This document shows positions 6,887 through 15,646 of a stretch of DNA of 33,975 nucleotides, one piece after another. Below the pieces are notes generated by a model. It was not told the origin of the DNA. It saw only the letters and a list, made by a program, of their open reading frames with translations, and made no database searches. The DNA is from Candidatus Hinthialibacter antarcticus (lineage in GTDB: Bacteria; Hinthialibacterota; Hinthialibacteria; Hinthialibacterales; Hinthialibacteraceae). Each line of letters begins with the position of its first letter. Position 1 is the first letter of the stretch. Both the position numbers and the translations under genes were made by a program. Where the stretch lies: positions 1 through 33,975 of the forward strand of contig JAVCCE010000042.1 in assembly GCA_030765645.1 (NCBI GenBank). The letters are read 5' to 3'.

Positions 6887-7807
6887 ACCCCAAAACGCTT
6901 TATACAAGGCCGCAATAAAGAGAACTGCCCCACCGAGTGCGGACGCAATATAAATAGTCGGCCCGGTCGCGATGCGCTGGTTGTTCAATAATAGAAGGGC
7001 GTAAACGCCAATCGCCGCTGCGGGCATGGCGAGCAGGCAAAGTAGCTGCATCAGCGATGGTTTTGAGTAGATTTGTTCATCTAATGATGACTTCGGGTTT
7101 CGTCGGTTTCGATTTAACGCCCAAAGCGTGATCCCTACACAGAGTGGAAATACCCAAAGCGCATGGATGTTAGCCGGGACGGTGACGAAGCAAAAATATA
7201 TCACGCAGATAGCCAACACCAGGCCGCCTTCGGTGCGCGGCGGGGGGAACGCGCCTGGTTGAATCCAATTTGACCCAAGCAAGCCGCCGATAAAAAGTAG
7301 GGACGTAATCGCGGCGTAGATGCAGTATTGAGGCAGCGGGGTGATTTCACCCGTTTCGATCCACCACCAGACCGACCAAAGACCCCAGAATAAGCCGAAG
7401 ACCACCGCATGACTGAGTAAGGGGAACAGGCGTTTCTCTCGTAACCGGCGGCGCGTGATGTACCAGCCTTCATACACGACGATCAAAGCGTGCCACGACA
7501 GCCCGGTGATGACAATGCTGAGCGGCAGGTCGTCATACATGGTTTGCACCACCAGACCTTCGATGAACCAGCCATACAGCGCAGCGGCCAAAACAACGCC
7601 CGCCCATTCATGGACGCGAAACGACTGGACCGTCCAGAGAAACACATAAGCCGCAAGGCTATACAACACTAGCGTCGGAATAAATTGGCTGCCGAATTGA
7701 CCGATAGAATCAAACCGCCCCCAAAACACCGCTTCCGCCAGCGCATAAAAAATGCAGCCTGTGAAAAGCGACAGCGCCACTCGTTTTGAAAACGCTTGTA
7801 TATTCAT
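6857..7807 (-). CDS. Polytopic membrane protein, about 10 TM segments, function unknown
   Basis: The 316-residue product consists of about ten hydrophobic segments with short loops and many aromatic residues (for example LFWGLWSVWWWIETG), with no signal peptide or soluble domain. I do not recognise the family. There is no transporter or enzyme motif I can name. The ATG at 7807 overlaps the stop of the upstream RNase HII-YraN gene (ATGA), so it is the second gene of a two-gene operon. Its 3' end runs 30 bp into tsaD on the opposite strand. A basic stretch NRNRRNPKSS (around residue 230) probably marks a cytoplasmic loop. Confidence 0.75.
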   Translation of the reverse strand: MNIQAFSKRVALSLFTGCIFYALAEAVFWGRFDSIGQFGSQFIPTLVLYSLAAYVFLWTVQSFRVHEWAGVVLAAALYGWFIEGLVVQTMYDDLPLSIVITGLSWHALIVVYEGWYITRRRLREKRLFPLLSHAVVFGLFWGLWSVWWWIETGEITPLPQYCIYAAITSLLFIGGLLGSNWIQPGAFPPPRTEGGLVLAICVIYFCFVTVPANIHALWVFPLCVGITLWALNRNRRNPKSSLDEQIYSKPSLMQLLCLLAMPAAAIGVYALLLLNNQRIATGPTIYIASALGGAVLFIAALYKAFWGSRNRVEGEV

Positions 7808-8982
7808 CGCAACTCTTCCTCCACCCGAAAGGCGTCTTCGATGTGCTCGATCTGCGGCGCCTCGCCTTTGGGCGTATACACGCTGATAACATCGTAGCGG
7901 ATATCCCAGCCGTGCAGTAAATCTCTGTCGAATAAATAGCGTTCTGCGGTTCGGATCATCGTCTGTGCTTTGCGTTTGGTGATGCTTTCCAACGGCGCGC
8001 CGAATTTGTCTGACGTACGCGTTTTGACTTCAACGAAAACGATAAGCATCCCCCGGTTGACGATCAGGTCGATCTCGCCGCCGCGTATTTTGTAATTGCG
8101 TTCCCAGATCGCGTACCCGTTGTCTTCCAGCAGCCGGGCCGCGACGTTTTCGCCGCGCTTGCCTTTTCGCAAAGTGGATATTTTTTTCGATGCTTGTTTG
8201 AGCGCTTCGAGACGATACTTGCAACGCTGTTGTAAGTAACTCGCCTCTATTGTATCCAACCTGGACGCTTCGATTTGGTTCCCAATCGCCATCAGTGCGT
8301 CTATCTGTTTGCACGGGGCGACCTGTTTCATAAACGATTGAAACGCAGGCGTGGGGTCGCAGGCGAGCAGGTTTTCCTGCACGGGGCCATACTTCGTGCG
8401 GTGCTCTTTGCAGGCGCCGAAAATTTGTACTGCGGCGCGATGGTATTCGGTCGGATAGCCCTTGTGTTGCGCGAACCCGTAGGCGGGGTGTTCGCGGTCG
8501 AGCGCGACCATGATGCGGTCGCGCACCACTTTGGCGATGATCGACGCCGCCCCCACGCATAAGCAACGCGCGTCGCCTTTGATGACCGCCTCGCCGGAAA
8601 GCGTGATCTCCGGGTAGTCGCGTCCGTCAACCAATACATACCCGGGCGGCTTTGGAAGTTTTTCGACGGCGCGTTTCATCGCCAAAAGCGACGCTCTGCG
8701 GATATTAATGGCGTCGATCTCTCGCGGCGAGGCTTGCGCGACCGAGTAGGCGTACGCGTGCTGGATGATGCGCTCGTACATCTGCTCGCGGGTGGATTCG
8801 GACAATTGCTTGGAGTCGTTGATTCCCGCGAACGCGCTGTAATCGCTGTCGTTAGAGAGGATCACCACCGCCGCGACCACCGGGCCTGCCAGCGGTCCGC
8901 GCCCGGCTTCATCCACCCCCGCGATCAGCCCGGCCTTGCGCTCATGCAACGCATGTTCAATATCGTATTTTGGATCGATCAT
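7804..8982 (-). CDS. rnhB: RNase HII - YraN (UPF0102) fusion protein
   Basis: Two normally separate proteins are joined in one uninterrupted 392-codon frame. Residues ~17-210 are RNase HII, which nicks RNA in RNA:DNA hybrids and removes misincorporated ribonucleotides: GVDEAGRGPLAGP carries Asp24/Glu25, VDGRD carries Asp119, and KVVRDR carries Asp155, completing the DEDD site. Residues ~275-392 are a YraN/UPF0102 nuclease-like domain: GKRGENVAARLL, GGEIDLI (302-307) and VFVEVKTRT (Glu318, Lys320), the PD-(D/E)XK-type core. A ~65-residue helical linker joins them. rnhB and yraN are often neighbours in bacteria, so fusion is plausible. There is no clear ribosome-binding site, and a REP palindrome lies 19 bp upstream. 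The gene overlaps the downstream membrane-protein gene by ATGA. Confidence 0.92.
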   Translation of the reverse strand: MIDPKYDIEHALHERKAGLIAGVDEAGRGPLAGPVVAAVVILSNDSDYSAFAGINDSKQLSESTREQMYERIIQHAYAYSVAQASPREIDAINIRRASLLAMKRAVEKLPKPPGYVLVDGRDYPEITLSGEAVIKGDARCLCVGAASIIAKVVRDRIMVALDREHPAYGFAQHKGYPTEYHRAAVQIFGACKEHRTKYGPVQENLLACDPTPAFQSFMKQVAPCKQIDALMAIGNQIEASRLDTIEASYLQQRCKYRLEALKQASKKISTLRKGKRGENVAARLLEDNGYAIWERNYKIRGGEIDLIVNRGMLIVFVEVKTRTSDKFGAPLESITKRKAQTMIRTAERYLFDRDLLHGWDIRYDVISVYTPKGEAPQIEHIEDAFRVEEELR

Positions 8983-9034: not shown

Positions 9035-9586
9035 TCATTCTCCCGTACAAGTATTCATCATTGTTGTAGGTTCACTGCTTCCCCAATTTATGTCATACCA
9101 TTCTTTTTCAACATATTTTTGGAATGATGAATATTCCCAATCTTTTGGCGACGAAACGTATCCATGCTTCACCGGGTTGTAATGAATATAATCCAAATGG
9201 TGGTGAAAATCATTTTCATCTCGGATGAAATGTTCCCAATAACGTCGTTGCCAAATGCCTTTTTCGTTTTTTTGAATTTTCGATTTTGATATATTTGTTT
9301 GAGATTGAATTGCGCTTTGATAATTTCGCGTGAATAGCGACTTGATGATTTGCCATCGCGTTGAAAAGTCGTTGTCATCTTCAGGCAATTTCCAAATCGT
9401 GTGAATATGATCGTGGAGCAAGACGAATCCTTCAATCGTAAATGGACGTTTTCCTCTTGCGATGTTGATGGCTTGTTTTAAGCAATTCCGTGCGGATTGA
9501 GATGTAAGTATCGGGCGTCGGTTATGCGTGACGACCGTGAAAAAATACATTGCGCCTTGTATGTTCGCCCGTCGATAGTTCGGCAT
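9035..9586 (-). CDS. REP-associated tyrosine transposase (RAYT, IS200/Y1-like)
   Basis: This is a single-strand DNA endonuclease of the HUH/Y1 superfamily that recognises REP hairpins. The N-terminus MPNYRRANIQGAMYFFTVVT is the standard RAYT opening. The HUH metal site is LLHDHIHTIWKLP (about residues 56-68), and the catalytic Tyr region is DYIHYNPVKHGYV, followed by the conserved WEYSSFQKYV. At 183 residues the length is normal, and the frame is intact. It lacks the left/right ends of an IS but is flanked by inverted REP palindromes, the hallmark of RAYTs. These genes are normally single-copy and vertically stable rather than freely transposing. Its physiological role remains unclear in general. 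Confidence 0.93.
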   Translation of the reverse strand: MPNYRRANIQGAMYFFTVVTHNRRPILTSQSARNCLKQAINIARGKRPFTIEGFVLLHDHIHTIWKLPEDDNDFSTRWQIIKSLFTRNYQSAIQSQTNISKSKIQKNEKGIWQRRYWEHFIRDENDFHHHLDYIHYNPVKHGYVSSPKDWEYSSFQKYVEKEWYDINWGSSEPTTMMNTCTGE

Positions 9587-9760: not shown

Positions 9761-10753
9761 TTACTTCTTTTTCAACCACGACATCAGGTTGCGCAGTTCG
9801 GCGCCGGTGGTTTCGAGTTCGTGTTCGGCGTCGCGTTTGCGAAGCGCGTTCAATTTCGGACGGTTGGCTTGGTTCTCAAGGATCCATTCCAAGGCGAACT
9901 CGCCGTTCTGGATTTCTTCGAGAATATCTTCCATTTCCATCTTGGTTTCTTCGGTGATGATGCGCGGCCCGCGTGAGAAGTCGCCGTATTCGGCGGTGTC
10001 AGAAATGCTGTCGCGCATCCCGGCGAGGCCCTTCTCATAAATCAGGTCGATGATCAATTTCATTTCGTGGACGCATTCAAAATAGGCCATTTCAGGCTGG
10101 TAGCCCGCATCGACCAGGGTTTCGAATCCGGCTTTCATCAGCGCGGTCAAACCGCCGCAGAGAACCACTTGCTCACCGAACAAATCGGTTTCGGTTTCTT
10201 CGCGGAAACTGGTTTCGATCACGCCCGCGCGGGCGCCGCCGATGCCTTTGGCGTAAGCAAGCGCGTTGTCTTTGGCGCTGCCGGAAGCGTCTTGTTCGAC
10301 CGCGATCAAGCAAGGGACGCCGCCGCCTTCGGTATACACACGGCGCACCAGGTGACCGGGGCCTTTGGGCGCGACCATGATGACGTCGACGTCAGCAGGC
10401 GGGATAATCTGGCCGTAGTGAATGTTGAACCCGTGCGCGAACAGCAGGGTTTTGCCCGCTTTCATTTCCGGCGCAATGGCGTCGTTATAAACCATCGGTT
10501 GGAACTGGTCGGGAACCGTAATCGTAATCAGGTCGCCCTTTTTGGCGGCTTCGGCGGCGCTCATCACTTCAAAGCCGTCCGCTTTGGCTTGGTCAAAGTT
10601 TTTGCCGGGTACTTCGGCGACAATTACGCTGACGCCGCTGTCGCGCAGGTTTTGCGAGTGGGCGTGTCCCTGGCTGCCGTAACCGATAATGGCAACGGTT
10701 TTGCCTTTGAGTAAGTCTAAATTCGCATCATCATCATAGTAAATCTGAACCAT
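9761..10753 (-). CDS. ilvC: Ketol-acid reductoisomerase
   Basis: This is the second enzyme of valine/isoleucine synthesis. It isomerises and reduces acetolactate or acetohydroxybutyrate to the dihydroxy acid, with Mg2+ and NAD(P)H. The Rossmann motif [13 protein letters not shown] (24-36), [10 protein letters not shown] with the catalytic His, [11 protein letters not shown] (metal-binding Asp/Glu) and [16 protein letters not shown] are all present. At 330 residues it is the short class I form. The beta2-alphaB cofactor loop reads VAEVPGKNF (45-53) instead of the common GLRxGSxSW type, so the Arg and Ser that usually hold the 2'-phosphate of NADPH are missing and a Glu is present. Cofactor preference may therefore differ. 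AGGAGA precedes the ATG. It is the last gene of the ilvBNC operon, 97 bp after ilvN. Confidence 0.97.
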
Positions 10754-10853: not shown

Positions 10854-11372
10854 TTAGACCAATGCTGGAGCGGCTTGATCGGATTTGACCAACCCGCGCG
10901 CCATGGCGACGCGTCCGCCGCGCGCGACTTCTAACACTTCGTACGGCGCCAGCAATTTCAAAAACGCCTGAATCTTGCCTTCGGAACCGGTCGCTTCCAC
11001 CGTCATGGTGTGAATACCCACGTCGGCGATATGCGCCCGGAAAATATTTGAGATTTCAACAATCTCCGACCGCTGATCGGGTTTGATTTTCAGTTTGACT
11101 AAAACCAACTCGCGGTTGATGATGTCGCGGTCTTCCATCGAAAAATCGCGGCATTCATGCACGTCAATCAATTTGTTGAGTTGCTTGCGCACTTGATCGA
11201 GAATCTTGTCATCGCCGGGCGCGACGATGGTCATTCGTGAAATTTTTGGATTTTCGGTTTCCGCGACGGTCAAACTTTCGATATTAAAGCCGCGCGCCGA
11301 AAACAAGCCCGCCACGCGAGCCAAAACGCCGGAGCGGTTTTCCACCAACACATAGAACACATGTCGTCTCAT
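10854..11372 (-). CDS. ilvN: Acetolactate synthase small (regulatory) subunit
   Basis: This is the regulatory subunit that activates IlvB and gives feedback inhibition by branched-chain amino acids. The N-terminal ACT domain starts [23 protein letters not shown] (shown in part: [14 protein letters not shown]) and continues [15 protein letters not shown], with the classic GxxNI loop. The C-terminal half (about 80-172) is the ALS_ss_C domain with [20 protein letters not shown]. At 172 residues it has the normal length. It begins 14 bp after the ilvB stop, preceded by AAGGAAA, so the two subunits are translated together. Expression is expected to be controlled by the attenuator upstream of ilvB. 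Confidence 0.96.
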
Positions 11373-11386
11373 CGGTTTTTCCTTTC

Positions 11387-13213
11387 TTAGGACATCCCGT
11401 CCACAATCTGGTCTAGCGACGCGCCGGCAGGCACCATCGGGAACACGTTTTCTTCGCGTTCAACCCACACGTCTAAAATCGCGCAGGTCTTTTGCTGCAA
11501 GCATTCTTTCATCGCGGCCTTGAGTTCGCTGCTTTTGGTGACGCGCTTGCCCCAACATCCATAAGCGTCGGCCAGTTTGGCGAAGTTCGGGACATAGTCG
11601 GAGTTCATCCAATCGCCGGGCGTGGTGTCGGTTTTCTTCTTGCCCGGTTCAGGGCGCGTTAACAGCGTCGCGGCGTAATTTTTGCCATAGAACATATCTT
11701 GCCACTGACGCACCATACCCAACCAACCGTTATTCATAATGATGACCTTTACCGGTAAGTTGTGATACACCGCCGTCGCCAATTCTTGAATGTTCATCAC
11801 CACTGAACCATCGCCCGCAATACAAACCACTTGGCGTTTGCGGTCGGGCCATTGCGCGCCGATGGCGGCGGGGAAGCCGTAGCCCATCGTGCCCAGGCCG
11901 CCTGAAGTCAACCAGGTGCGGGGTCGGGTAAACGTATAATATTGCGCCGCCCACATCTGGTGCTGGCCCACTTCGGTGGCGATGATGGCGTCGTCGTCAG
12001 TGAGTTCATCGACAACCTGTACCAACTCTTGAGGCTTGATGAGGTCGTTGGTGTTTTTCGTGTTATAGCGAAGCGGATGCTTGCGCTTGATCTCATCCAG
12101 TTCTTCGAGCCATGCTTTGGTATCGCAGCGTTTGGCGACTTTATTGAGTTCTTTGAGGATGTATTTCACATCGCCGACCAAATCGACATCCACCGACACG
12201 TTTTTGCTAATGGATGACGGATCAATGTCCATGTGGACAATTTTGGCGTTTGGCGCGAATTCTTCGATCTTTCCGGTGACGCGGTCGTCGAAACGCGAGC
12301 CGGTCGCAATCAAAACGTCGCAGCGTTGCACCGCCAGATTTGCGTAGACGGTTCCGTGCATGCCCAGCATGAGAAGCGCAAGCGGGTGCGTTTCAGGAAA
12401 CGCGCCCAATGCCATCAAGGTTGTGGTGACTGGCGTGTTGGTCTTGGTCGCGAACAAAAATAGTTCGTCCGCCGCATTGGCGTTAATCACGCCGCCGCCG
12501 ACGTACAGCAAGGGCCGCTTGGCGTTTTTAATCAGTTCCCACGCCGCCTTGATGTTTTCTTTTGGCGGCATGATCTGCGGATTGTATCCAGGCAGGTCCG
12601 GTTCTGTCGGGTAGACATAGTCTTCCAGCGTTCCCTTTTGGATGTCCTTAGGGATGTCGATCAGCACCGGGCCGGGGCGCCCTGTGGCGGCGATGTGGAA
12701 GCAGTTGCGCATGAGTTGCGGCAACTCCTCAATGGTTTGTACTAAATAATTGTGTTTGGTGACTGAGCGGGTGATGCCGACCACGTCCGCCTCTTGAAAG
12801 GCGTCGTTGCCGATCAGACTGGTTGGAACCTGGCCGGAGATGCAGACCAGCGGGATCGAATCCATCTGCGCGTCAGCAAGCCCAGTAACAGTATTCGTTG
12901 CTCCAGGGCCGGAGGTGACCAGCGCACAGCCGACCTTGCCAGTCGCGCGGGCGTAGCCTTCCGCCATGTGGAGCGCGCCTTGTTCGTGACGCACCAAGAC
13001 AAACTCAAACTTGTCTGATTGCGTAATCAGGTCGAAGACCTCGATAATGGCGCCGCCAGGGTAGCCAAAGACGACTTCAACGCCTTCACGCTCCAGTGCG
13101 TCGACGACGATTTCCGCCCCCCGCATGGGGCGCGGCTGAGTTTTCAAGGCTTTTTTCTTGCCCTTGCCTTTGGCTTTGGCCGTTGCTTGTTTCGGCCCGG
13201 TTTTGCTAGGCAT
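11387..13213 (-). CDS. ilvB: Acetolactate synthase large (catalytic) subunit
   Basis: This is the ThDP/Mg2+/FAD enzyme that condenses pyruvate with pyruvate or 2-oxobutyrate, the first common step of Val/Leu/Ile synthesis. The order of domains is: Pyr domain with FGYPGGAIIEVFD and the catalytic Glu in RHEQGALHMAEGYAR; central FAD/DHS-like domain; and PP domain with the ThDP motif GDGSVVMNIQELATA ending in the NN pair of IIMNNGWLGMV. The length of 608 residues includes an unusual Lys/Ala-rich N-terminal extension of ~30 residues (KAKGKGKKKALK) before the conserved start MRGAEIVVDALE. AGGGAG lies 7 bp before the ATG at 13213. It is the first structural gene of the operon, ~70 bp downstream of the leader terminator. 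Confidence 0.97.
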   Translation of the reverse strand: MPSKTGPKQATAKAKGKGKKKALKTQPRPMRGAEIVVDALEREGVEVVFGYPGGAIIEVFDLITQSDKFEFVLVRHEQGALHMAEGYARATGKVGCALVTSGPGATNTVTGLADAQMDSIPLVCISGQVPTSLIGNDAFQEADVVGITRSVTKHNYLVQTIEELPQLMRNCFHIAATGRPGPVLIDIPKDIQKGTLEDYVYPTEPDLPGYNPQIMPPKENIKAAWELIKNAKRPLLYVGGGVINANAADELFLFATKTNTPVTTTLMALGAFPETHPLALLMLGMHGTVYANLAVQRCDVLIATGSRFDDRVTGKIEEFAPNAKIVHMDIDPSSISKNVSVDVDLVGDVKYILKELNKVAKRCDTKAWLEELDEIKRKHPLRYNTKNTNDLIKPQELVQVVDELTDDDAIIATEVGQHQMWAAQYYTFTRPRTWLTSGGLGTMGYGFPAAIGAQWPDRKRQVVCIAGDGSVVMNIQELATAVYHNLPVKVIIMNNGWLGMVRQWQDMFYGKNYAATLLTRPEPGKKKTDTTPGDWMNSDYVPNFAKLADAYGCWGKRVTKSSELKAAMKECLQQKTCAILDVWVEREENVFPMVPAGASLDQIVDGMS

Positions 13214-13285: not shown

Positions 13286-13315
13286 AAAAAAGCCGTGGAC
13301 TGTCGCCCACGGCTT
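13286..13315 (-). terminator. Attenuator terminator in the ilv leader
   Basis: The stem AGCCGTGG/CCACGGCT (8-9 bp, 8-nt loop) is followed by a run of six T residues on the minus strand. It lies 23 bp after the stop of the Val-rich leader peptide and ~70 bp before ilvB. Its 5' arm overlaps the antiterminator arm at 13304-13320, so the two structures exclude each other. Confidence 0.88.
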
Positions 13316-13366
13316 CGAGGTTGTTGTTTTAGGTGTCTTACGCAGCCATCCTCGAGGCAGTGGGCG
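13304..13366 (-). promoter_or_regulatory. Antiterminator helix of the ilv attenuator
   Basis: Two arms, 13350-13366 (inside the end of the leader peptide frame) and 13304-13320 (5' side of the terminator), can pair over 17 positions with only two mismatches. Formation of this helix removes the 5' arm of the terminator. A competing upstream hairpin at 13373-13392 (CGTCGTC/GACGACG), extended by CCTCG (13391-13395) pairing into the first arm, would be disrupted when a ribosome stalls at the Val codons. This matches the 1:2, 2:3, 3:4 logic of amino-acid attenuators. Confidence 0.85.
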
Positions 13367-13442
13367 TCATCGCGTCGTCTACTACGACGACGAGGTTCGC
13401 TACTACACTGACGACTACGAGAAGAATGGCGTTTGATATCAT
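13338..13442 (-). CDS. ilv operon leader peptide (34 aa, Val/Leu/Ile-rich)
   Basis: A short minus-strand frame starts at ATG 13442-13440 and ends at TAA 13340-13338. The central part reads ILLVVVSVVANLVVVV; in all, 9 Val, 3 Leu and 2 Ile occur in 34 residues, using both GTA and GTC Val codons. The tail (DDAMTPTASRMAA) covers the antiterminator arm. This is the layout of IvbL/IlvL-type leaders: lack of charged tRNA-Val/Leu/Ile stalls the ribosome, the antiterminator forms, and ilvBNC is transcribed. With amino acids plentiful, the ribosome reaches the stop, masks the arm at 13350-13366, and the terminator forms. The ribosome-binding site is weak (an A-rich stretch). I infer no separate function for the peptide. 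Confidence 0.9.
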   Translation of the reverse strand: MISNAILLVVVSVVANLVVVVDDAMTPTASRMAA

Positions 13443-13473
13443 AATTTTTTTAGTTATCGTTAGATGAGGTGAA

Positions 13474-13502
13474 AACTTAATCGCAAATCACTTCTTTGTC
13501 AA
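13474..13502 (-). promoter_or_regulatory. Promoter of the ilv leader/operon
   Basis: A perfect TTGACA (plus 13497-13502) and TAAGTT (13474-13479) are separated by 17 bp, 32 bp upstream of the leader-peptide ATG. This gives a short 5' leader of about 25 nt, suitable for attenuation control. The -10 matches the consensus only partly. Confidence 0.6.
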
Positions 13503-13807: not shown

Positions 13808-14149
13808 TTAATCAAATTTGACTTCAATCAATTCGAGGTCTTTTGTTTCGTCAAATTTCATTGATCCGCCGCATTCGGGGCAGATAAACAAGTGGCCCAC
13901 CAGGTCTTCTTCGCTAATGGTTTGAGTCAGGCCGCAGTCGTCGCAGTAATGGACGAACTCGCCCTGGTCAATCACCAGTTCGGACCCTTCAAGCGCAGTA
14001 TGATCTGTTAATGAGTTGTATGCTTTGCGTAACTCCTCATCGGAAAAAATAGCGCCTTTACGTAAGTGAACTTCATGCACATGGGCGGAGCCGTTGGCTC
14101 GCTCGTTCAGTTGGCTGACCAGCCGTTCAACATTTGAATACTCATACAT
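13808..14149 (-). CDS. HypA-like zinc protein lacking the nickel-site His2
   Basis: This 113-residue protein has the HypA/HybF fold pattern: an N-terminal helix starting MYEYSNVERLVSQL, a strand EVHLRKGAIF, SDEELRKAYNSL, then a zinc domain with two CxxC pairs (Cys69/72 and Cys90/93, the latter in HLFICPECG). HypA delivers nickel to NiFe-hydrogenase or urease maturation; its Ni site needs His at position 2, and here that residue is Tyr while Glu3 is kept. A nickel-delivery role is therefore doubtful. It is a paralogue of the protein at 14560-14904, which has His2. AAGGAGA precedes the start, partly overlapping a small palindrome TTAGGA/TCCTAA (14164-14177). No hydrogenase or urease gene is in the window. 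Confidence 0.85.
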   Translation of the reverse strand: MYEYSNVERLVSQLNERANGSAHVHEVHLRKGAIFSDEELRKAYNSLTDHTALEGSELVIDQGEFVHYCDDCGLTQTISEEDLVGHLFICPECGGSMKFDETKDLELIEVKFD

Positions 14150-14559: not shown

Positions 14560-14904
14560 TCAAACTTTGATTTCGAGAACTTCTAAGCCCGAGGCTTCGT
14601 CGACTTGCTCGGCGTGGCCGCATTCGGGGCAGATGTGCAGGTGTCCGACCAGGTCGTCGGCTTCGACGGTTTCGGTAAAGTTACAATTTGGGCAGGTTTT
14701 TTCGACAGAGTAGGCTTCAACGATGAGTTCGGATCCTTGCAACGGCGTATCGACAGTCAACATTTCAAAGGCCTGAATCAACGCGCCCTCTGAAAACGTA
14801 CTTCCACGGCGTAGGCGGACGGACTTTAATTGATTGGCGCCCTTTGACTCTAACTCTTTCTTGAGCTGGTTGACCAAATCTTCGACGATAGAATATTCGT
14901 GCAT
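14560..14904 (-). CDS. hypA: HypA-like nickel/zinc metallochaperone
   Basis: The 114-residue product begins MHEYSIVEDLVNQL, so it keeps the His2-Glu3 nickel site of HypA, followed by VRLRRGSTFSEGALIQAFEML and a zinc domain with Cys71/74 (CPNC) and Cys92/95 (CPEC). Its length equals typical HypA. The frame is open further upstream, but the ATG at 14904 has AAGGGAG eight bases before it and gives the correct HypA N-terminus. The role would be nickel insertion with HypB into hydrogenase or urease, yet no partner gene is nearby, so the target is unknown. The Tyr2 paralogue lies downstream on the same strand beyond a MITE. A -10 box TATAAT lies at 14969-14974. Confidence 0.87.
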   Translation of the reverse strand: MHEYSIVEDLVNQLKKELESKGANQLKSVRLRRGSTFSEGALIQAFEMLTVDTPLQGSELIVEAYSVEKTCPNCNFTETVEADDLVGHLHICPECGHAEQVDEASGLEVLEIKV

Positions 14905-14968
14905 GAGGGCGACTCCCTTATTGGCAATGTTGGCTGGCTTCGTTATGATGAAGTCGTATGTTCGTGAT

Positions 14969-14997
14969 ATTATATAGTGGCTGGTTTTATCTGACTT
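14969..14997 (-). promoter_or_regulatory. Promoter candidate for the His2 hypA-like gene
   Basis: There is a perfect -10 TATAAT (plus 14969-14974) with AAGTCA (14992-14997) 17 bp upstream as a weak -35. It lies 65 bp before the ATG in the divergent region with the secreted-protein gene. Confidence 0.45.
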
Positions 14998-15028
14998 GAA
15001 AAGGACTACCGCAACTGCGGAATATGAA

Positions 15029-15646
15029 ATGATGTCTCTGTTTAAATGGTTTAGTTGTGCAATTCTCATCACCCTGTCAATTCATGCTTGGGCTGACCGG
15101 GTGCATCCTCTCTCATTGCCTGAGATCGCCGCATCCGCCGCAACCATCTTTGAAGGCGAATGCGTTGACATTCGCAGCGGCGTTGATGAACAGAGCGGCC
15201 TCTTGGCGACTTGGTACACCTTTAAAGTCACGAACCGCATCAAAGGCGATTTGAGCGAAACCTTCACCTTCAAACAATACGGCGGCAGCGACGGCGAGCG
15301 CAGGATTGCGTCTCCCAGCGCCCAATATGAAAAAGGCAAGACGGTGATTGTCTTTCTATATGGAACTAGCAAGATTGGTTTTTCTAGCGCCGTGGGGCTG
15401 ACCCAAGGCAAATTCAGCGTAATCGAACACCCTGCGACAAAAAAAATGGTGGTCAGCAACGGCATGCCAGCGGCGATTTTATTTAAGAATACGCCATTTC
15501 TGCCTGCGGCCTACGACGGGCAGGGCAAGCGATTGCAAGGGGCCAAACAATTACAAGCCAAACAACTCGACCACAACGAATTTATCGCTGTGGTACAAGA
15601 ACTCATTGAATCCGCCAGCAAAGACGCGAAAAAAGAGAAAGAATGA
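15029..15646 (+). CDS. Secreted protein of unknown function
   Basis: The 205-residue product opens with MMSLFKWFSCAILITLSIHAWA, a good signal peptide cleaved near AWA-D. The mature part (~180 residues) looks mostly beta-stranded: TIFEGECVDIRSGVD, LATWYTFKVTNRIKGDLSET, FTFKQYGGSDGE and KTVIVFLYG. This resembles extracytoplasmic beta-barrel-like hypothetical proteins found in environmental bacteria, but I cannot name the family. The Lys/Gln-rich C-terminus is helical. A TTG at 14996 would add 11 residues before the signal peptide, so the ATG at 15029 is preferred. The stop overlaps the next ATG (ATGA), so it is coupled to the NPCBM-like gene. Confidence 0.75.
   Translation: MMSLFKWFSCAILITLSIHAWADRVHPLSLPEIAASAATIFEGECVDIRSGVDEQSGLLATWYTFKVTNRIKGDLSETFTFKQYGGSDGERRIASPSAQYEKGKTVIVFLYGTSKIGFSSAVGLTQGKFSVIEHPATKKMVVSNGMPAAILFKNTPFLPAAYDGQGKRLQGAKQLQAKQLDHNEFIAVVQELIESASKDAKKEKE

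Follow-up and report, generated by a model that had tools for sequence, protein, structure and literature searches.

How is the ilvBNC operon controlled in a deep uncultured lineage, and what part does the short reading frame in front of it play? The window analysed here (the whole stretch of 33,975 nucleotides from Candidatus Hinthialibacter antarcticus, whose genome comprises 5.1 Mb in 78 contigs) carries on its minus strand the genes for the large subunit of acetolactate synthase (ilvB, 11387..13213; TIGR00118, 796 bits; Shine-Dalgarno GGGAG at 13225-13221), its small subunit (ilvN, 10854..11372; TIGR00119 / NF008864, over cut-off) and ketol-acid reductoisomerase (ilvC, 9761..10753; NF004017 / TIGR00465, over cut-off). 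A preliminary description had placed a complete ribosome-mediated attenuator upstream of these genes. The observation was confirmed and its numbers proved exact on re-reading of the sequence. We consider that the ilvBNC leader is a ribosome-mediated (leader-peptide) transcription attenuator, with a probability of roughly 0.93. On the same strand, the neighbourhood includes a gene for a REP-associated tyrosine transposase immediately 3' of ilvC (9035-9586; NF047646, 189 bits), a single ORF that appears to fuse RNase HII (residues 6-205) to a YraN-like domain (residues 270-386) at 7804-8982 and, further upstream, genes for two neighbouring HypA-like proteins (hydrogenase nickel metallochaperone; 13808-14149 and 14560-15072), each under the family cut-off.

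The leader peptide ORF (13338..13442, minus strand, as are all features below) encodes MISNAILLVVVSVVANLVVVVDDAMTPTASRMAA and a stop codon. It has 34 codons, 14 of them for Val, Leu or Ile, and lacks a Shine-Dalgarno sequence. Its Val-rich control-codon region (13380..13418) reads GTA GTC GTC AGT GTA GTA GCG AAC CTC GTC GTC GTA GTA. The last Val codon is 16 nt from arm 2, the 5' side of the antiterminator (13350..13366; CGCCCACTGCCTCGAGG), which lies within the ORF and encodes TPTA(S/L). Arm 3 (13304..13320; CCTCGAAGCCGTGGGCG) pairs with arm 2 (13366-13350 against 13320-13304) at 15 of the 17 positions and is also the 5' side of an intrinsic terminator, 3:4 (13286..13316; stem 13316-13289, T-run 13291-13286). 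The two hairpins are therefore mutually exclusive, as had been claimed.

Two other elements of the preliminary description fared less well. The 'strong promoter' read from the sequence at 13474..13502 does have a perfect -35 element, TTGACA (13502-13497), but the -10 box that follows after a 17-nt spacer, TAAGTT (13479-13474), is weak, matching TATAAT at 3/6 positions, and is not listed by a consensus scan, which gives no sigma-70 hit for this strand. An upstream competing hairpin can be folded but was rejected: it is no stronger than in controls with synonymous codons (z averages about 0, at +0.65 and -0.27), and it has no bases in common with arm 2.

A whole-genome search provided 13 relatives of the same class: five from family f1, three from its sister family f2 (same order) and five from other families. 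RpoB proteins of the class are 65-86% identical; against the 33 named genomes tried, long RpoB matches reach about 61% at most, and IlvB matches to named lineages reach 57%. The element lies directly 5' of ilvB in all nine f1 and f2 genomes, including that of the window, giving ten copies with one tandem duplicate. Leaders contain 28-34 codons, with 10-16 V/L/I codons each, and start with ATG in nine copies and GTG in one. The stop codon is found, in the same frame, 8 nt past arm 2 in 7/7 f1 copies and 2 nt past it in 3/3 f2 copies. The preliminary description had made its case depend on conservation in relatives; all ten copies, across two families, retain the reading frame with its V/L/I run, end it at the conserved stop position and preserve each of the two competing helices. 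Each leader is also preceded by TTGAC[A/G] and a TA-rich -10 box at 16-17 nt spacing (10/10), and the -10 boxes of the relatives are better than the TAAGTT of the window.

A covariance model built from the ten sequences gives 87-112 bits at the ten ilvB sites, scores that are not independent because the same sequences built the model, and at most 28 bits in the rest of the 14 genomes, an absence that is independent. Three further families of the class lack the element by this model. Weak full-length matches on contigs G001:C27 and G000:C29 lie within unrelated genes or at their ends and were discarded. G001:C51 (L113) has two ilvB genes in tandem, 65% and 75% identical to that of the window and each with its own leader attenuator, and on G003:C113 (L114) a diverged extra paralog (G003b) is preceded by a degenerate attenuator remnant, AAAGCCGTAAGATGCGGGTACAATGCTCACGGTTTTTC, with no recognisable V/L/I leader.

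We also used a detector requiring a V/L/I run in a short ORF together with a terminator. It is strict, and other types of control at some loci may escape it. Positive results were obtained for 8/10 orthologs and for two further ilvB-like genes, G009b and G011b, and for none of approximately 96 regions preceding IlvB genes of other lineages, among them Omnitrophota, Nitrospirota, Planctomycetota and Deltaproteobacteria. Since one of 1,140 Markov-shuffled upstream regions was positive, such a combination almost never arises by chance. This bears on the alternative that the hairpin merely terminates the upstream HypA-like gene (14149-13808) and that the short ORF is fortuitous. The gene is indeed on the same strand, and intergenic intrinsic terminators are common. 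However, it has a separate terminator-like hairpin of its own at 13731-13717, a TTGAC(A/G) promoter element stands between this hairpin and the leader in all copies, and the element accompanies ilvB in every close relative, including the tandem duplicate of G001. We regard this explanation as extremely improbable.

Base pairs were counted on a hand-made alignment of the arms of the ten copies. In helix 2:3, 85.8% of cells are paired, compared with 41.6-49.5% in slid controls. Five pairs have changed on both sides, compared with 2.1 +/- 1.0 after shuffling (3/500 shuffles reach five), and the covariation score is equalled by 2/500 shuffles. In helix 3:4, 97.5% of pair cells are kept and one pair shows a two-sided change, from A-U to G-C in four sequences. 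As arm 3 serves both helices, any change must satisfy both 2:3 and 3:4. Helix 2:3 is predicted to be more stable (-26.7 to -33.6 kcal/mol) than 3:4 (-17.5 to -27.4 kcal/mol) in 10/10 copies, an order which, as modelled, is what attenuation needs. When a single species is considered alone, a shuffle test of the arm-2 duplex energy is weak for ilv (p = 0.13), and the claim consequently rests on the comparison and not on one sequence. The ORF, the arms, the terminator, their conservation, the compensatory changes and the predicted relative stabilities form the part of the attenuator that is demonstrated, at the level of sequence.

Another alternative is that the ORF encodes a functional small hydrophobic peptide, active in the membrane or in trans, instead of or besides acting as a sensor of ribosome position. 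The peptides do have 28-34 residues with a hydrophobic core, and trans-acting leader peptides, such as peTrpL, are known (PMC7298713). The only invariant residues are, however, M1, V21, P27 and A29, and the TPTA stretch is accounted for by RNA pairing. Conservation concerns the class of codon (V/L/I) and its distance from arm 2 rather than particular residues, and we judge a role for the peptide itself to be very unlikely.

The choice of codons also agrees with attenuation. The 64 Val codons of the leaders comprise 29 GTA, 22 GTC, 8 GTT and 5 GTG. GTA thus represents 29/64, compared with 15% in the genes of the window (p = 6e-8, an optimistic value because the background is the genome of the window only and the leaders are related). 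This bias fits the theory of selective tRNA charging, which predicts a preference among synonymous codons at regulatory positions, where they are chosen for sensitivity (PMC1183508). Pairing with the anti-Shine-Dalgarno sequence is weak or absent in nine of the ten leaders (none better than -3.5 kcal/mol) and reaches -7.2 kcal/mol in G002. The start codon of the f2 leaders is about 10 nt past the -10 box, and this position suggests that their mRNA may be near-leaderless.

From these features we infer leader translation, ribosome stalling, premature termination and the response to amino acids. RNA polymerase would initiate at the TTGACA promoter, with a ribosome trailing it through the 34-codon leader. 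If charged tRNA-Val (and tRNA-Leu or tRNA-Ile) were scarce, the ribosome would stall in the Val-rich stretch, 13-22 nt before arm 2. Arm 2 would then be free to pair with nascent arm 3, the terminator would be blocked and ilvBNC would be transcribed. If amino acids were plentiful, the ribosome would mask arm 2, arm 3 would pair with arm 4 and transcription would stop at about 13286.

Folding of truncated transcripts is largely consistent with this scheme. In this model the RNA extends as far as arm 3. If a ribosome occupies Val codons located 13-22 nt before arm 2, most copies form 2:3 with a probability of approximately 1; placing the ribosome inside arm 2 lowers this value to approximately 0. 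Most copies therefore have the spacing required, with arm 2 free when the ribosome is on the control codons and masked when it is further on. The exception is G002, whose arm 2 is not released in the model by a stall on the codons closest to it. For f1, a ribosome at the stop codon covers arm 2 incompletely and 2:3 can still form in the same model, so that the scheme accounts only in part for the state in which amino acids are plentiful. Equilibrium folding of the full-length RNA favours the terminator in nearly all states, even with the ribosome on most of the Val codons. The switch must consequently be kinetic and depend on the order in which the arms are made, like that of classical attenuators. 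Full-leader equilibrium folding is thus uninformative as a test of the switch, and truncated transcripts were used in its place. The protector hairpin, 1:2, of the classical four-arm scheme was not found in most copies: upstream pairing of arm 2 is at most 0.10 in 8/10 copies, with values of 0.40 in G004 and 0.89 in G002. The proposal of a ribosome-mediated attenuator is largely supported, with the exception of a conserved competing upstream hairpin.

A different type of RNA device could also govern the terminator: a T-box or a small-molecule riboswitch (for example, of the ppGpp type), with no role for leader translation. T-boxes are present in this lineage 5' of leuA, and ppGpp riboswitches have been found before ilvB in some bacteria (PMC10272879). 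Nevertheless, searches of the ilvB leader with Rfam, both at gathering thresholds and at E = 5, gave only spurious miRNA matches (the library may not include every published ilvB motif). T-box model RF00230 has no match at ilvB, though the same library detects T-boxes at leuA. In addition, coding region and antiterminator take up essentially all the space between the start of the leader ORF and the terminator, and the frame has been conserved together with its run of V/L/I codons. A riboswitch or T-box at this site is exceedingly unlikely.

The leuA T-box (RF00230, 98-120 bits) was found in seven genomes (L180, L181, L182, L184, L186, L187 and that of the window itself, L185 on G000:C56). With a leader attenuator at ilvBNC and a T-box at leuA, different RNA control systems operate side by side in the same genome. 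Further candidate leaders were identified at other biosynthetic genes. A second DAHP synthase gene in G008, G003, G005, G001 and G011 (L174, L175, L176, L177 and L173) has a Phe/Tyr/Trp-rich leader ORF and a terminator. These leaders, for example MMTQRFSFPYFYFYWRLT, are sited approximately 220-920 nt 5' of the DAHP synthase family match and include the runs FSFPYFYFYW, FSFYYFWW, YSYRFYFWY, FFGYWYYF and RFYWYFYF; at L177 (G001) a candidate antiterminator pairs GGGGAGAATC with GATTCTCCCC. They are putative aromatic attenuators that may respond to Phe, Tyr and Trp alike. The AroR leader at aroF of C. glutamicum, with its Phe-Tyr-Phe, is comparable (PMC11802643, PMC4046766). At L200 (G008) and L201 (G006) an Ile-rich leader, MTH[I/T]IEIIGIIIGQGGPGPMP (run IEIIGIII), and a terminator lie approximately 200 nt 5' of a leuA-like gene. 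This low-scoring member of the leuA family is probably citramalate synthase, an enzyme of the Ile pathway. No leader was found at trpE, one dubious case excepted.

It is possible, at what we would consider somewhat less than even odds, that the lineage has evolved its own leader-peptide regulon beside the leuA T-box, comprising ilvBNC (V/L/I), the second DAHP synthase (Phe/Tyr/Trp) and the probable citramalate synthase (Ile). Its ilv leaders would be SD-less or near-leaderless and GUA-preferring, with the antiterminator arm in the ORF and without a protector hairpin, and would perhaps sense one tRNA-Val isoacceptor. Within single genomes, control of the branched-chain pathway is shared out between leader peptides and T-boxes. 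The comparative evidence extends leader-peptide attenuation to a deep uncultured lineage, with an element for which no Rfam family gave a match, and the covariance model and its ten sequences could seed a new one.

The mechanism is a textbook one: E. coli and Corynebacterium provide established cases of ilvB attenuation, and others have been proposed in several phyla. In E. coli, the ivbL-ilvBN attenuator combines a Val/Leu-rich leader with a terminator and antiterminator. The element described here resembles it in these respects and precedes the gene for the same first enzyme, although the arm sequences differ. In two other families of the class, a diverged second ilvB-like gene (G009b, L122; G011b, L128) is preceded by an ivbL-like leader (VVVRVLVVVRVTNAVAP in G009b) with a different, C-rich terminator; horizontal transfer and convergence are both possible explanations. 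The antiterminator arm within the ORF and the lack of a clear protector hairpin are variations of the known mechanism, not a new one.

The preliminary description overstated how far the present example widens the range of such attenuators, since ilvB attenuators with upstream ORFs have already been reported or suggested from 'various bacterial phyla' (PMC10272879). An ilv leader peptide is also found in Listeria (PMC5864092). The ilvB-OMG and Leptospira ilvB motifs, proposed attenuators from various phyla with upstream ORFs rich in codons for branched-chain amino acids and Thr (PMC10272879), are similar as ilvB-associated RNAs with an upstream ORF, a comparison made from their descriptions; as there is no Rfam match in the window, no sequence or structure relationship to them is shown. 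A close parallel is the ilvBNC attenuator of Corynebacterium (ilvB-II motif; PMC10272879, PMC11857589), which also has a V-rich upstream ORF, a terminator and an antiterminator. Synthesis of the C. glutamicum leader reportedly also dispenses with a ribosome binding site (Morbach 2000, as cited in PMC10272879), as seems to be the case here. That leader differs in length, with approximately 15 residues (PMC4046766) compared with 34, in that the antiterminator arm is inside the ORF here, and in that the element of the window scores with no Rfam model. Finally, V/L/I-rich ORFs and poly-U terminators have been noted upstream of actinobacterial ilvB genes; there, the terminator is overlapped by the V/L/I runs, and how regulation works was described as unclear (PMC1262725), whereas the ilvBNC leader described here has an explicit, covarying antiterminator.
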